DNA of 64,000 bases from Paenibacillus ihumii. GTDB lineage: Bacteria > Bacillota > Bacilli > Paenibacillales > Paenibacillaceae. A program made the translations under genes and the position numbers. Positions 57,236-62,816 of this stretch are shown piece by piece; the stretch's first letter is position 1, and each line of letters opens with the position of its first letter. The notes under the pieces are model-generated. The model saw nothing but the letters and a program-made list of their open reading frames with translations. It did not search any database and was not told the origin of the DNA. The DNA lies in the NCBI RefSeq assembly GCF_001403875.1, contig NZ_LN884299.1:1302117-1366116 (forward strand), given 5' to 3'.

Positions 57236-57423
57236 AGGCTATGCAGGAGTTCGGGGATTCCTGTCGAATTTAACATCAACACTTGACTGTACACGCTTCC
57301 CTTGAGTACGTGTTCAAGAGCAGACCTTTAATGCAGGTTCAAGAGAGGCCTTCGCAACCGTGAAGGCCGGTGTTTTGAACAGCTTTTTAGGGGAGGCTTC
57401 GAATTTTCTAGGAGGTGCGCAAT
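57236..57423 (+). other. Gap before divIVA with a hairpin and a direct repeat
   Basis: The nonamer GTTCAAGAG occurs at 57312-57320 and 57337-57345 (25-base period). GGCCTTC (57347-57353) pairs with GAAGGCC (57362-57368), followed by GGTGTTTT, a weak terminator for ylmH. The divIVA promoter is not clear; TTGACT at about 57292 has no good -10. Confidence 0.45.
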
Positions 57424-57942
57424 ATGCCATTAACGCCGCTGGATATACATAATAAAGAGTTTTCCAGACGTATTCGCGGTTACGATGAAGATGAAGTCAA
57501 TGAATTTCTCGATCAGGTCATTAAAGATTACGAGATCGTGATCCGGGAGAATAAAGAGCTCCAAAGCCAGCTGCTGGCCGTGCAGGAGCGGCTGGATCAT
57601 TTTGCAAATATTGAAGAGACGCTCAGCAAGACGATCATCGTGGCGCAGGAAGCGGCGGATGAGGTAAAGAACAACGCGAAGAAGGAAGCTCAGCTCATCG
57701 TGAAGGAAGCCGAGAAGAATGCAGATCGGATCGTCAATGAATCGCTGGCGAAATCACGAAAAATAGCGATGGAGGTCGAGGAGCTGAAGAAGCAGGCTTC
57801 GATCTATCGCGCCCGTTTCCGGACGCTTGTCGAAGCGCAGCTCGATCTGCTCAGCCAGGACGGCTGGGATACCCTGGAGGACCGTGACCGGCTGGAGGAT
57901 CGCGAGCGCAACCGCGACCGCGAAATTAAAGAGATTTACTAA
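57424..57942 (+). CDS. divIVA: Septum-site protein DivIVA
   Basis: 172 residues. Recognises curved membranes at poles and septum. Membrane-binding start MPLTPLDIHNKEFSRRIRGYDEDEVNEFLDQVIKDYE with the conserved Phe and Arg pair, then coiled coils (IRENKELQSQLLAVQERLDHFANIEETLSKTI and AADEVKNNAKKEAQLIVKEAEKNAD). The end is very charged (EDRDRLEDRERNRDREIKE). The ATG at 57424 follows TAGGAGGTGCGC. Confidence 0.96.
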   Translation: MPLTPLDIHNKEFSRRIRGYDEDEVNEFLDQVIKDYEIVIRENKELQSQLLAVQERLDHFANIEETLSKTIIVAQEAADEVKNNAKKEAQLIVKEAEKNADRIVNESLAKSRKIAMEVEELKKQASIYRARFRTLVEAQLDLLSQDGWDTLEDRDRLEDRERNRDREIKEIY

Positions 57943-57955
57943 ACGGCAGCCCTGG

Positions 57956-57985
57956 TTGACAGAGCGGGGTAAAGTAAGTTATAAC
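57956..57985 (+). promoter_or_regulatory. Sigma-A promoter of ileS
   Basis: TTGACA (57956-57961), 18-base spacer, TATAAC (57980-57985). It begins 14 bases after the divIVA stop. Confidence 0.75.
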
Positions 57986-57991
57986 TATAAC

Positions 57992-58306
57992 ATATTAAAT
58001 CGTGCATATGGATTTGATGATGGGAACCAGTACGCTGTGTTTTTGTTCTCAGAGAGTTGATGATTTGCTGCGAGTCAACGTTCAAGACACAGACGGAATA
58101 TCGTCCCGGAGAAGATAAGCCGAGATTTCCGATAAGGAAAGCGTAAGCTCTATCCGGCCGCCGGCCGTTATACCGGCCCCATATGAAGCGTATGGGATCA
58201 AAGTGCCATGCCGCCTGACCGGAGCATTTCGGATTGGAAGCGGCTTGGAACAAGGGTGGTAACGCGAGCGTAGAGTCTCGTCCCTTTTTGGGGCGGGGCT
58301 TTTTTT
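57992..58306 (+). ncRNA. Isoleucine T-box riboswitch
   Basis: The leader has a T-box layout. Stem I begins near 58014 (GATGATGGGAACCAGTACG), with AGAGAG at about 58051. The likely specifier codon is ATC at 58100-58102, followed by GTCCCGGAG, which fits Ile. The T-box AAGGGTGGTAACGCGAG has TGGT at 58257-58260, which pairs with the ACCA end of uncharged tRNA-Ile. The terminator stem is 58274-58284 with 58290-58300, then TTTTTT. Uncharged tRNA-Ile switches it to the antiterminator and allows ileS transcription. Confidence 0.92.
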
Positions 58307-58379
58307 GTTGCCCATAGGAGCCTTAGAAGGTTAGGGCTGCAACTCTAACAATATGGATGGAAAGGAAGTCGCTTCGAAA

Positions 58380-61300
58380 ATGAGAAAAGTAGATGTCAAA
58401 GAACCAGCGCGAGCCCGCGATCAACGCATCCTCGCTAAATGGAAGCAGGAGAATACGTTCAAGCGCAGCATGGAGAACCGCGAGGGACGGCCTAATTATG
58501 TATTCTATGAAGGTCCGCCTACCGCGAACGGAGCCCCGCATATCGGCCACGTTCTAGGCCGTGTCATCAAGGACTTCATCGGCCGTTATCAGACGATGAA
58601 CGGCTACCGCGTGGTCCGCAAAGCCGGCTGGGATACACACGGATTGCCGGTTGAGCTTGGCGTCGAGAAGCAGCTCGGCATTTCCGGCAAGCAGGAAATT
58701 GAGAAATACGGTGTCGAGAAGTTCGTGAAGAAGTGTAAGGATAGCGTGTTCGAATACGAGAAGCAATGGCGTGAATTGACGGAAGGGATCGCATACTGGA
58801 CCGATCTCGATAACCCGTATATCACTTTGCAAAATTCATATATCGAAAGCGTGTGGAATATTCTGTCCACCATTCACCAGAAAGGACTGCTGTACCGCGG
58901 TCATCGTGTTAGCCCGTACTGCCCGTGCTGCCAAACGACGCTCAGCTCCCATGAGGTTGCCCAAGGCTATGAAGACGTCAAGGATTTGAGCGCTACGGCG
59001 AAATTCAAGCTGAAGGACAGCGGCGAATATGTGCTTGCCTGGACGACGACCCCTTGGACGCTGCCTTCGCACGTGGCTCTAGCCGTGAATCCGGAGCTGG
59101 AATATGTTCGTGCCCAGCAAGAGGATGGTGTATATATCGTTGCCAAAAATTTGGCGGATGATGTGTTAAAAGGCGAGTTCACGGTATTGTCCACTTTGAA
59201 GGGATCCGAGCTCGTGGGCCAGTCCTATACTCCTCCTTTCAGCTACGTATCGCCGGAGAACGGTCTCGTTATTCTCGGCGCCGATTTCGTTACGGACGCA
59301 AGCGGTACAGGGATTGTCCATATGGCTCCTGCCCACGGGGAGGATGACTACAAAGTATGCCGCGAGAACAAGGTTGAGTTCGTCAGCGTCGTCAACACGC
59401 AGGGACGATATACGGAAGAAGTGACGGATTTTGCAGGCCGCTTCGTGAAGGATTGCGATCTGGATATTGTAAAATGGCTGTCCGAACGGGGCCTGCTGTA
59501 TTCCAAAGAGAAATACGAGCACAGCTATCCGTTCTGCTGGCGCTGTAAATCGCCGCTGCTCTATTACGCGATGGAGAGCTGGTTCATTCAGACGACCGCG
59601 GTGAAGGATCAATTGATCGCCAATAATAACGGCGTACAATGGTACCCGGGGCATATTCGCGAAGGCCGCTTCGGCAAGTTCCTGGAGGATCTGGTCGATT
59701 GGAACATCAGCCGCAACCGTTATTGGGGCACCCCGCTGAACGTCTGGGTGTGCAGCTCCTGTAAGGGTGAATATGCGCCTTCCAGCCATAAGGATTTGCG
59801 CGAGCATGCCGTAGGCCATGTATCCGAGGATCTTGAGCTGCATAAGCCTTACGTCGATGAAGTGAAGCTGCACTGCCCGCATTGCGAGGGCGGCATAATG
59901 GAGCGAACGTCTGAGGTCATCGACGTCTGGTTCGACAGCGGCTCGATGCCGTTCGCTCAATACCATTATCCGTTCGGCGACCAGAAGGTGTTCGAGGAGC
60001 AGTACCCGGCTGATATGATCTGCGAGGGGATCGACCAGACTCGCGGCTGGTTCTACAGCCTGCTGGCCGTGTCTACGCTGTACAATGGCAAGGCTCCTTA
60101 TAAGGCCGTCATCTCGACTGGCCATATCCTGGATGAAAATGGACAGAAAATGTCCAAGTCTAAAGGAAATGTCATCGATCCTTGGGATATTATCAATGAA
60201 TTCGGAGCAGACGCATTCCGCTGGGCCTTGCTGTCTGACAGCGCGCCGTGGAACAGCAAACGCTTCTCCAAAGGTATCGTCGCCGAGGCGAAATCTAAAG
60301 TGGTGGATACGCTGGTTAATACCCACTCCTTCCTGACGCTGTATGCGGCAATCGATGGATTTAAGCCGGAGGAGCATGAATTCCGCCCGTCGAAGAGCAA
60401 GCTGGACCGCTGGATCCTTTCCCGGTTGAACAGTCTGATCCAGGCAGTGGGCAAAGGACTCGCCGTAAACGACTTCTTGAACCCGGCCAAGGCGATCGAA
60501 GGCTTCATCGACGAGCTAAGCAATTGGTATATCCGGCGTTCACGCGACCGCTTCTGGGGCAGCGGGCTTGGGGAAGATAAGGTATCCGCGTATCAGACTC
60601 TGATTCATGTATTGCTGACGCTGTCCAAACTGATGGCGCCGTACACGCCGCTGTTGTCCGAGGATATTTACACGAATCTGGGTGGCGGCGAGAGCGTACA
60701 TTTAGCCGATTATCCGAAGGCCGACGAAGCGTTAATCGATGTGAAGCTGGAGAACGATATGGAGTCCGCACGTCAAATCGTCGAGCTGGCCCGCAATGTG
60801 CGGAACGAGACGGGAATCAAGACCCGCCAGCCGCTGACGAGCCTGATCGTCTCCATGAACCGTGATTTTGCGGTATCTGAGTACGAAGAAATCATCAAGG
60901 ATGAAATCAACGTCAAGCAGATTGAACTGGAGACGAGCGACAGCGGGTTCGTCGATTTCACGCTGAAGCTGAATCTGAAGGTAGCTGGTAAAAAGTATGG
61001 TAAAAACGTAGGCTTCCTGCAGGGCTTCCTGAAAGGATTGGCGCCTGAGGAGACCCGCCGTGCGGTAGAGGGCGGAGCGATCAACGTGACCTCGCCGGAA
61101 GGGGAGGAGCTGCAGATCACGGCCGAAGAGCTCCTGATCGACAAGCAGGCGAAGCCCGGCTTTGCATCGGCGTCCGGTTACGGCATTACGGTAGCGCTCA
61201 ACACCGATATTACGCCGGAGCTCGAGCAGGAGGGCTGGGTACGCGAGGTTGTCCGCGCCGTTCAGGATACCCGCAAGAAGCTGGATCTGCCGATCGAGCT

Positions 61301-61475
61301 AAGAGTGCATCTGACGCTTGATGTGGACGATGAGCTGCAAGCGGCGATCGTGGCGTTTGAGCAGGTGCTGCGCGACAATGTACTGGTCACGGACGTGGCG
61401 TTCGGCAAGCTGGGAGACGAAGCCGAAATCACTGACCTCGGCGCGAAGAAGGTCGGAATCCTGATTAAGGGCTAA
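58380..61475 (+). CDS. ileS: Isoleucyl-tRNA synthetase, type 2
   Basis: 1031 residues, about 100 longer than Bacillus IleRS. Class I motif HIGH at residues 54-57 and KMSKS at 590-594. The start NYVFYEGPPTANGAPHIGHV, and the long tail, are those of the IleRS2 group (eukaryote-like, as in MupA-type enzymes), which binds mupirocin weakly; type 1 enzymes have DGPPYANG there. The motif is canonical (HIGH), not inverted. Two ATGs are possible: 58353 lacks a ribosome site, whereas 58380 follows AAAGGAAG at 13 bases. Regulated by the Ile T-box. Confidence 0.94.
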   Translation: MRKVDVKEPARARDQRILAKWKQENTFKRSMENREGRPNYVFYEGPPTANGAPHIGHVLGRVIKDFIGRYQTMNGYRVVRKAGWDTHGLPVELGVEKQLGISGKQEIEKYGVEKFVKKCKDSVFEYEKQWRELTEGIAYWTDLDNPYITLQNSYIESVWNILSTIHQKGLLYRGHRVSPYCPCCQTTLSSHEVAQGYEDVKDLSATAKFKLKDSGEYVLAWTTTPWTLPSHVALAVNPELEYVRAQQEDGVYIVAKNLADDVLKGEFTVLSTLKGSELVGQSYTPPFSYVSPENGLVILGADFVTDASGTGIVHMAPAHGEDDYKVCRENKVEFVSVVNTQGRYTEEVTDFAGRFVKDCDLDIVKWLSERGLLYSKEKYEHSYPFCWRCKSPLLYYAMESWFIQTTAVKDQLIANNNGVQWYPGHIREGRFGKFLEDLVDWNISRNRYWGTPLNVWVCSSCKGEYAPSSHKDLREHAVGHVSEDLELHKPYVDEVKLHCPHCEGGIMERTSEVIDVWFDSGSMPFAQYHYPFGDQKVFEEQYPADMICEGIDQTRGWFYSLLAVSTLYNGKAPYKAVISTGHILDENGQKMSKSKGNVIDPWDIINEFGADAFRWALLSDSAPWNSKRFSKGIVAEAKSKVVDTLVNTHSFLTLYAAIDGFKPEEHEFRPSKSKLDRWILSRLNSLIQAVGKGLAVNDFLNPAKAIEGFIDELSNWYIRRSRDRFWGSGLGEDKVSAYQTLIHVLLTLSKLMAPYTPLLSEDIYTNLGGGESVHLADYPKADEALIDVKLENDMESARQIVELARNVRNETGIKTRQPLTSLIVSMNRDFAVSEYEEIIKDEINVKQIELETSDSGFVDFTLKLNLKVAGKKYGKNVGFLQGFLKGLAPEETRRAVEGGAINVTSPEGEELQITAEELLIDKQAKPGFASASGYGITVALNTDITPELEQEGWVREVVRAVQDTRKKLDLPIELRVHLTLDVDDELQAAIVAFEQVLRDNVLVTDVAFGKLGDEAEITDLGAKKVGILIKG

Positions 61476-61627: not shown

Positions 61628-62023
61628 ATGACTCTACAGAGACCGAAAGCAGGCCGAGACCAAGCGGCAGAGGCAGCGGGCATAACGGAAATGGACCATA
61701 TTCATCGCAACCATGGCGGAGCGGCAGAGGAAGAGAAGATAAACGCCATGTACAATTTAACTTTAAAGTGGGCGCAGCAGCTTGAACAATCGCGAATCAT
61801 CGAATACGCCGAACTGCTGCGCCGGCCCTGGAGCCTTATTTGGCGCAATGTACTGGCCGGAACGGCAAGAGGAATCGGGATTGCGATCGGGTTTACTTTT
61901 TTTGCGGCTACGATTATCTATATCCTGCAAATCCTTGGTGCGCTGAATTTGCCGATCATCGGGGATTATATTGCCGATATCGTCAGAATCGTTCAGCGCC
62001 AACTGGAGCTTAATACGTATTAG
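61628..62023 (+). CDS. DUF5665-like membrane protein
   Basis: 131 residues. A polar start of about 50 residues, then NLTLKWAQQLEQSRIIEYAELLRRPWSLIWRNVLAGTARGIGIAIGFTFFAATIIYILQIL with one or two membrane helices, and a short amphipathic end (IADIVRIVQRQLEL). It resembles DUF5665 proteins. Function unknown. ATG at 61628 follows AAGGGTGGGATAACGGG. No counterpart lies between ileS and ylyA in B. subtilis. Confidence 0.7.
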   Translation: MTLQRPKAGRDQAAEAAGITEMDHIHRNHGGAAEEEKINAMYNLTLKWAQQLEQSRIIEYAELLRRPWSLIWRNVLAGTARGIGIAIGFTFFAATIIYILQILGALNLPIIGDYIADIVRIVQRQLELNTY

Positions 62024-62078: not shown

Positions 62079-62816
62079 TCAATAGATGTTCGGTCCGTCG
62101 CCAAGCGAGTCCTCGCTTTCCAGATGTTCCGTGGCGCTCATATGCTTACGGTATTGGCCATTGCGGTAAAAAACGACGTTACGGCCGTAAATATCCGTAG
62201 CAACAAAGCTTTCGTACGGTTCGACGAATCCGTCTAGTTCGTTGCTGGCTTCAATTTCCATATCATTGTAATCATCTACTTCGTCCTCCTCCGCCATGGC
62301 GGGAGAATTCGAAGTACCGTAGCTTTCGACAATCTGCCAGGCGTCTTCGCCGTCAAACTCGGTCTCGTCGGCACGCTCGTCCAGGCTCGTTCGGCCGAAC
62401 GGCGGATACAGCACCAGCTCTTCTACAGGCCGGTCTCTCGATACTCTGGACTGCGGACTGTGATCTTTGCAGTAAGCCGTCTCGGGTATGGCTCTTAGCC
62501 GCTCGATGTCAATCGGCTGGTCGCAGGTTAAGCAATAGCCGTAGCTTCCAGCAGCTATCCGATCCAGCGCGTCCTTCACGCGGGTCAACCGCAATTCATC
62601 ATGATTGGTGAGAGCCACATCTTTACCGCGCTCGAACACCTCTGTCCCGATATCGCCAGGGTGATTGTCAACCGTACTAAGCTCGCTTGTATTGTCGCTG
62701 ACGCTCCCGTTTAGGCCGTAGTGATCGTTGGCCGACAGCTTGGTTTCGATGGACTGCTGCTCGGAGCGCAGCTGGGCTTCAAGCTCCGCGAGGAGCTGCT
62801 TGCTAAGATGACTCAT
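62079..62816 (-). CDS. ylyA: DksA/TraR-like zinc-finger protein YlyA/YteA
   Basis: 245 residues. The N-terminal coiled coil (SKQLLAELEAQLRSEQQSIETKL) leads to the globular part with DNTSELSTVDNHPGD, a second helix (LRLTRVKDALDRIAAGSYGYC) and a DksA-type finger: CLTC...AYCKDH, so the fourth ligand is not Cys (Asp or His instead). The C-terminal half (150-245) is acidic and includes VEELVLYPPF and EDAWQIVESYGTSN, the YteA/YlyA extension. B. subtilis YlyA binds RNA polymerase and stimulates sigma-G promoters. In B. subtilis ylyA lies between ileS and lspA as it does here, though here it is on the minus strand. Confidence 0.9.
   Translation of the reverse strand: MSHLSKQLLAELEAQLRSEQQSIETKLSANDHYGLNGSVSDNTSELSTVDNHPGDIGTEVFERGKDVALTNHDELRLTRVKDALDRIAAGSYGYCLTCDQPIDIERLRAIPETAYCKDHSPQSRVSRDRPVEELVLYPPFGRTSLDERADETEFDGEDAWQIVESYGTSNSPAMAEEDEVDDYNDMEIEASNELDGFVEPYESFVATDIYGRNVVFYRNGQYRKHMSATEHLESEDSLGDGPNIY

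Follow-up and report, generated by a model that had tools for sequence, protein, structure and literature searches.

We analysed a 64,000-nucleotide stretch of the Paenibacillus ihumii genome (assembly GCF_001403875.1, contig NZ_LN884299.1, forward-strand positions 1,302,117 to 1,366,116; hereafter the window), and in particular its ileS2 gene, which encodes a type-2 isoleucyl-tRNA synthetase (IleRS2), together with the T-box leader in front of it. Comparison of the sequence and genome of this one strain with those of its relatives indicates that the gene very probably encodes the sole, housekeeping IleRS of the organism, and that a T-box-ileS2 unit probably replaced, in place, a T-box and the type-1 gene (ileS1) in an ancestor of the family. 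The flanking genes at the locus are equal inside and outside the family, the gene between them is of the other type, and relatives exist that hold both types. A type-2 IleRS with mupirocin tolerance is for the most part known in kind; what we add is an account of how ileS2 came to this locus. The literature that we searched contains no statement of an in-place exchange of T-box-ileS1 for T-box-ileS2 in the Paenibacillaceae, but most subscription papers lay outside that search, and we make no claim to a first report.

The open reading frame (ORF) extends from 58353 to 61475 on the plus strand and encodes 1040 residues. A good ribosome-binding site (AAAGGAAG) precedes the ATG at 58380 by 11 bases, and translation from this codon (58380-61472) yields the 1031-residue enzyme of the initial annotation. 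Its assignment to type 2 and not type 1 held up in a phylogeny rooted with valyl-tRNA synthetase (ValRS), which placed the window enzyme in the type-2 clade, separate from the type-1 clade, with an SH-aLRT support of 100 for each. This tree comprised 36 rows, including 14 of the 29 type-1 proteins plus that of Escherichia coli and 20 of the 74 type-2 rows, and was obtained by a quick search; long branches lead in it to ValRS and to the E. coli enzyme. The closest matches in the Protein Data Bank (PDB) were four IleRS2 entries from Priestia megaterium (1436-1447 bits, 8c8v first), compared with 394 bits for the IleRS1 entry 8c9e of the same species. The naming of these entries (8c8u, 8c8v, 8c8w and 8c9d as IleRS2, 8c9e as IleRS1) follows PMC10485003. 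The NCBIfam ileS model TIGR00392 matched the window enzyme with 974.6 bits.

Motif comparison agreed with this assignment. HIGH and KMSKS are intact in the window enzyme, and HIGH, LGRVIKDF and His582 are present in all 29 family enzymes, the window's included. The NKIL motif of IleRS1 is missing, and a His replaces the Phe586 of IleRS1; among the type-1 rows, LNK[IV]LKD occurs in at least 21 of 29, and Phe in all 28 that have an aligned residue. In the P. megaterium type-1 enzyme, Asn70 and Phe586 are the residues that contact mupirocin, and His582 is the counterpart of Phe586 in the type-2 enzyme (PMC10485003). A type-2 C-terminus was recognised by PF19302 at residues 845-1038 of the 1040-residue ORF. 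IleRS1 carries a zinc-finger domain, and a Pfam scan of the window enzyme, run without a type-1 control protein, listed no match to zf-FPG_IleRS. Judged by its sequence, then, the window enzyme is of type 2. The hyper-resistant form of IleRS2, in which G/AXHH replaces HXGH, was considered and set aside, the window motif being HIGH.

The same motif bears on how far the enzyme should tolerate mupirocin. The initial annotation had spoken of a mupirocin-insensitive class; the class stands, but "insensitive" is too strong, because a HIGH-motif enzyme is expected to have a micromolar inhibition constant (Ki). For P. megaterium, Ki values of 1.08 uM for IleRS2 and 0.29 nM for IleRS1 are given, a difference of about 3700-fold, while GXHH and AXHH enzymes have millimolar values (PMC10485003). 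Since the window motif is HIGH, we expect by analogy a Ki near 1.08 uM and not in the millimolar range. Extrapolating from these solved relatives, mupirocin would bind the window enzyme weakly and P. ihumii would grow at doses that stop users of the type-1 enzyme, so that natural tolerance of the organism is expected. That IleRS2 is the sole enzyme here and nevertheless gives no useful tolerance seems improbable to us. HIGH-motif enzymes are indeed only moderately resistant, with Ki values of 0.20 and 1.08 uM (PMC10485003). Against this stands the mupirocin resistance of Paenibacillus sp. LC231, whose IleRS raises the minimal inhibitory concentration (MIC) in E. coli to >100 ug/ml from 25 ug/ml with the empty vector (PMC5155152).

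We searched the P. ihumii assembly (5.92 Mb in 9 contigs, 99.95% complete) for a second ileS using Pfam tRNA-synt_1 and NCBIfam ileS. One gene alone scored above the TIGR00392 cut-off, all other matches falling below it, which bears out the reliance on IleRS2 that had been proposed; on this evidence the window gene is the organism's sole, housekeeping isoleucyl-tRNA synthetase. In 149 genomes of the same order, all at least 95% complete and queried with the window protein and with a type-1 protein, IleRS2 was found in all 65 that belong to the window family and IleRS1 in none of them, the type-1 query giving no match at E<=1e-150 in any of the 65. Among the other 84 genomes, IleRS2 was present in 59 and IleRS1 in 81: 56 hold both types, 25 type 1 only, and three (G013, G023 and G118) type 2 only. 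Frame-broken copies, namely ileS1 of G057 and ileS2 of G064, were scored as present in these counts. The distribution points to mupirocin tolerance, by way of the housekeeping enzyme, in an entire bacterial family.

Several ileS copies are broken: ileS1 of G057 and ileS2 of G064 each lie in two overlapping frames, ileS2 of G035 shifts frame near its 3' end, and that of Paenibacillus sp. P25 is split in two. These copies (loci L192, L189, L186 and L079) possibly reflect ongoing decay or sequencing error, and we built no argument on them. Two contigs from human faeces that were deposited as phage (MT835484.1 and MT835536.1) encode nearly full-length IleRS2 proteins of 46-47% identity, covering 100% and 96% of the query, respectively, and may be misassigned bacterial DNA.

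In a wider survey of 200 Bacilli genomes, IleRS2 was found in 47 and IleRS1 in 166. Thirteen of the genomes with IleRS2 hold both types and 34 type 2 only, the latter comprising 17 of the window family, 16 of family f16 and genome G237; a sole type-2 enzyme is therefore not unique to the window family. No divIVA-lspA marker lies within about 5 kb of the ileS2 genes of four f16 genomes and of G237, a range that more distant markers could escape. A T-box core motif precedes ileS2 of G237, while of two f16 loci submitted to Rfam one gave a T-box match below the threshold (76.1 bits) and the other none. Outside the order, four genomes of genus g82 in family f31 (G214, G277, G247 and G237) include carriers of IleRS1 alone, of both enzymes and of IleRS2 alone, a mix that suggests a recent transition.

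We compared the chromosomal places of the two types using the window's YlmE, SepF, YlmG, YlmH, DivIVA, DUF5665, YteA and LspA proteins as locus markers. Within the family, ileS2 occupies the standard locus in the window, in all 23 further genomes that were fetched and in five of five named records. Outside it, all 41 ileS1 genes examined adjoin divIVA, lspA or both, and all 28 ileS2 genes examined are without locus markers in the fetched flanks, a few of which were cut by contig ends. A T-box core motif lies upstream in 27 of these 28 ileS2 loci, and the 28th has an Rfam T-box match of 87.8 bits (E 9.8e-18), below the gathering score of 93. The flanks differ from one non-family ileS2 locus to another: 138 of 154 ORF families were confined to a single locus, and nine of the 15 shared families besides IleRS2 link only a trio of f9 genomes or the pair G013 and G023. 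The ORFs were called mechanically at >=90 residues and some are surely spurious, which inflates the unshared count. In the three type-2-only genomes outside the family (G013, G023 and G118), the standard locus passes from divIVA to DUF5665 and yteA with ileS absent, and no Rfam T-box match was found there at E<=0.01.

Two further loci were noted. An ileS2 of Paenibacillus cellulosilyticus on a replicon deposited as a plasmid was considered as a mobile copy and rejected, as it belongs to a ylm-divIVA-ileS2-lspA-pyr cluster (L069, NZ_CP054609.1, 261535-280621); this 508 kb replicon appears to carry essential genes. A plasmid of Sutcliffiella horikoshii (L070, NZ_CP082921.1) carries a T-box and ileS2 between genes of a YcaO/thiopeptide-type bacteriocin and a CBASS effector gene.

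In a tree of the neighbouring genes (SepF, YlmG, YlmH, DivIVA, YteA and LspA; 61 rows), the loci with ileS2 formed one clade (support 100/98), and the overall pattern required three changes, which we read as a single replacement and the loss of ileS1 on two occasions. A wider tree (60 rows), for which another order supplied the outgroup, gave an equal change count and support; it included 16 of the 29 family loci, left out L224, which lacks the neighbour genes, and its deep branches remained open. In a quick-search tree of 74 IleRS2 rows, the family enzymes formed one clade (98) within the IleRS2 of the order. The f9 enzymes grouped with those of Gottfriedia and Sporosarcina, and the Brevibacillus reuszeri enzyme was nested in family f6, placements that are both signs of horizontal movement. 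The plasmid-borne MupA fell near the Rossellomorea and Sutcliffiella enzymes, but on a long branch, and we did not rely on this placement.

The leader provides a second line of evidence. A model search with RF00230 recovered the Ile T-box that had been proposed, with its ATC specifier and TGGT, just above the gathering score and over the complete model (positions 1-219). It is the one T-box that Rfam finds in the window and among 20 in the P. ihumii genome at E<=0.001. The specifier region reads GGAATATCG. In the leaders of relatives T, G, A or C precedes the ATC while the ATC itself is unchanged, and the specifier is therefore taken as this Ile codon and not as a shifted TAT. Every one of the 29 family leaders has the pattern G-[ATG]-A-N-ATC-N-N-C, as do 24 of the 27 leaders of non-family ileS2 genes and 28 of the 29 that precede ileS1.

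We next scored the leaders against two profiles, one built from 29 ileS1 leaders and one from 24 non-family ileS2 leaders. Three f9 leaders were kept out of the latter, their IleRS2 belonging to another branch, and all three score as ileS2-type; L183 and L078, which have no match to the motif expression, were not scored. In a leave-one-out control, 29 of 29 ileS1 and 24 of 24 ileS2 leaders were classed correctly. All 29 family-locus leaders scored higher with the ileS2 profile, the window leader reaching 141.4 bits against 35.4 with the ileS1 profile, and the weakest being those of G087 (56.1 versus 28.4) and G065 (63.0 versus 33.1). When the 19 other T-boxes of the P. ihumii genome were scored on both strands, the highest values were 41.1 bits (ileS1 profile) and 37.6 bits (ileS2 profile), compared with 139.6 for the window leader in the same test. 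The ileS2 leaders of Sutcliffiella, Sporosarcina, Neobacillus, Ureibacillus, Gottfriedia and Rossellomorea preferred the ileS2 profile without exception (6/6). Because the leader senses tRNA and not the enzyme, nothing forces it to follow the enzyme's type, and the most economical reading is a joint move of leader and gene.

That same property could make the T-boxes interchangeable, so that only the coding region was swapped and the T-box of the resident ileS1 stayed behind and now drives ileS2, a course of events that we consider slightly less probable even than the lack of useful tolerance. When the leaders were scored in halves, the ileS2 profile was preferred by all 29 in the 3' half, as it was over the full length, and by 27 of 29 in the 5' half; here the leader of G075 favours the ileS1 profile (25.4 versus 19.1 bits) and that of G087 gave no usable score. 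Two short elements were also compared. AGAGAG is present in every one of the 27 non-family ileS2 leaders and in 28 of the 29 from the family, but also in 9 of 29 ileS1 leaders; AGCGA[GAC] marks 28 of 29 ileS1 leaders and none of the 27 non-family ileS2 leaders, yet is found in 4 of 29 family leaders. The preference of every full-length leader and every 3' half, with the prevalence of AGAGAG in the family and of AGCGA[GAC] in the ileS1 leaders, argues instead for the joint replacement of T-box and gene.

A number of points nonetheless weigh against the joint, in-place replacement. The comparison of places covered 24 of the 65 family genomes, 28 of the 59 non-family ileS2 genes and 41 of the 81 ileS1 genes, which limits the sampling. 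In G087 (L221, 1750-6685), an apparent insertion puts divIVA some 5 kb upstream of the T-box of ileS, and the stretch fetched for G099 has the downstream genes without the upstream ones. The sister of the family was f2 on the 61-row tree and unresolved on the wider one. Two of the 29 family leaders, as noted above, lack an ileS2 preference in their 5' half, and the AG elements, judged from these leaders, agree with the leader lineage but are unclean markers. Under the ileS2 profile the family leaders score 56-167 bits, below the 173-343 bits of the training set under leave-one-out; under the ileS1 profile they score 17-67 bits, and the highest of these values exceed the 19-45 bits that the ileS2 profile gives to ileS1 leaders. 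By these scores the family leaders are diverged, and a profile preference is a different thing from a tree of leaders.

A third explanation, which takes ileS2 as the ancestral occupant of the divIVA locus in this order and has ileS1 invade later in the other families, strikes us as very unlikely. IleRS2 has a long history and a wide distribution in Bacillota (PMC4861432) and was present in 47 of the 200 Bacilli genomes, but ileS1 occupies 41 of 41 non-family loci examined in the order as well as that of G214 in another order, a single change suffices for the alternative, and IleRS1 is by far the more frequent type in the Bacilli survey. Least likely, and by our estimate hardly credible, is the existence of a further, type-1 ileS on a replicon absent from the assembly, which would make IleRS2 accessory: the assembly is in several contigs and both types occur together in many genomes of the order, but a nearly complete assembly holds one ileS, and a type-1 match is absent throughout the 65 family genomes, several of them single-contig.

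Under the favoured reading, then, a T-box-ileS2 unit would have displaced the resident T-box and ileS1 in the ancestor of the window family (most likely the Paenibacillaceae, by genome-based classification), at a site that comparison places between divIVA and the DUF5665, yteA and lspA genes. The likely preceding state, still seen in many relatives outside the family, has ileS1 at the locus and a T-box-ileS2 unit elsewhere. In other lineages (G118; G013 and G023) ileS1 would have been lost outright and ileS2 kept elsewhere. From general T-box biology, uncharged tRNA-Ile would pair with the ATC and TGGT and stabilise the antiterminator; transcription would then read into ileS2, giving induction upon a shortage of Ile-tRNA. 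Control of ileS by T-boxes is common in Firmicutes (PMC2494555). Two pattern searches of the P. ihumii genome for tRNA-Ile(GAU) found nothing. At six loci (L188, L158, L164, L163, L171 and L202), 0.6-1.5 kb separates the T-box core from ileS.

Whether this can be generalised we regard as evenly balanced: T-box and ileS2 may form a self-regulated unit that moves horizontally across Bacilli, that gives genomes with both types a built-in switch for resistance, and that took over the essential place of ileS in the family ancestor, rendering the resident enzyme dispensable. In such genomes, mupirocin would stop IleRS1, uncharged tRNA-Ile would rise, and the T-box of ileS2 would activate the tolerant enzyme. 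Zanki and colleagues reportedly stated in 2022 that Bacillaceae with ileS2 always keep ileS1, which would make the present order a natural counter-case to that constant retention. This one order shows a full series, from IleRS1 alone through both enzymes to IleRS2 alone, with its gene either at a new place or at the old one, which makes the question of why lineages keep or drop the drug-sensitive enzyme testable among close relatives. It also shows a riboswitch lineage tracking the type of the enzyme although it senses tRNA only.

The features of the locus are listed in Table 1. Its position after divIVA and before lspA was as initially described, whereas the gene named ylyA there is a YteA-family gene on the minus strand, and the DUF5665 gene between it and ileS2 had gone unmentioned. 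The T-box TGGT is expected to pair with the ACCA of uncharged tRNA-Ile. A consensus promoter scan listed no promoters, the TTGACA/TATAAC pair included; it is with this pair that the interval of the initial annotation begins, which accounts for its start at 57956. Elsewhere in the window, a group II intron lies at 1027-2919 (RF02003 at 1027-1169, RF00029 at 2844-2919), and a 436-residue ORF within it (1506-2816) resembles, by eye, a reverse transcriptase/maturase.

Table 1. Features of the ileS2 locus, in window coordinates.
Feature	Position	Strand	Basis or remark
divIVA, upstream neighbour, marks the standard ileS locus	57415..57942	+	PF05103, 164.2 bits
Possible sigma-A promoter, TTGACA (57956), 18 nt, TATAAC (57980)	57956..57985	+	By eye
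Ile T-box leader, ileS2 T-box lineage	58008..58288	+	RF00230, 94.8 bits, gathering score 93
Specifier codon ATC (Ile)	58100..58102	+	GAA-N-ATC context; ATC constant in relatives
T-box TGGT, expected partner ACCA of uncharged tRNA-Ile	58257..58260	+	Pairing from general knowledge
Intrinsic-terminator-like hairpin overlapping the antiterminator region	58272..58302	+	13 pairs, then T run
ileS2, type-2 isoleucyl-tRNA synthetase, 1031 residues, sole IleRS found in the genome	58380..61475	+	
DUF5665 protein, downstream neighbour	61628..62023	+	PF18910, 68.7 bits
YteA-family (TraR/DksA zinc finger) protein	62079..62816	-	TIGR02890, 164 bits, cut-off 134.4
lspA, encoding signal peptidase II, with an uncertain start codon	62880..63527	+	TIGR00077, 151.3 bits, cut-off 73.95

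Finally, we set the window system beside those already described. The types of IleRS generally occur singly, a small group of Bacillaceae having both, and IleRS2 confers resistance as a sole or as a second gene (PMC10485003); it is found in Firmicutes and other bacteria, for which ancient horizontal transfers have been argued (PMC4861432). The IleRS2 of P. megaterium (PMC10485003) resembles the window enzyme most closely among PDB entries, over ORF residues 10-1035, and shares its HXGH, KMSKS and His582, but it is a second gene beside ileS1, whereas the window ileS2 is the only one and lies at the standard locus. The IleRS of Paenibacillus sp. LC231 (PMC5155152) is likewise a chromosomal Paenibacillus enzyme and confers mupirocin resistance in E. 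coli; the likeness is one of description, not of sequence, and the available part of that paper does not state whether it is a sole copy, of type 2, preceded by a T-box or placed between divIVA and lspA. MupA of staphylococcal plasmids is also a type-2 IleRS, 49.5% identical to the window protein, but it is a plasmid gene, and the identification of the window protein as MupA was rejected by its score with NF000257 (1216.8 bits, cut-off 1900). The window leader has the Ile specifier, TGGT and terminator of known Firmicutes ileS T-box leaders (RF00230; PMC2494555), and differs in belonging to an ileS2-linked lineage distinct from the ileS1 leaders of the order. The nearest parallel for the replacement itself is that of LysRS1 and LysRS2, in which one form of a synthetase was likewise replaced by way of genomes that hold both (PMC1475646); those two enzymes are of unrelated classes, whereas IleRS1 and IleRS2 are two types of one class I enzyme, here probably replaced in place together with its regulator.

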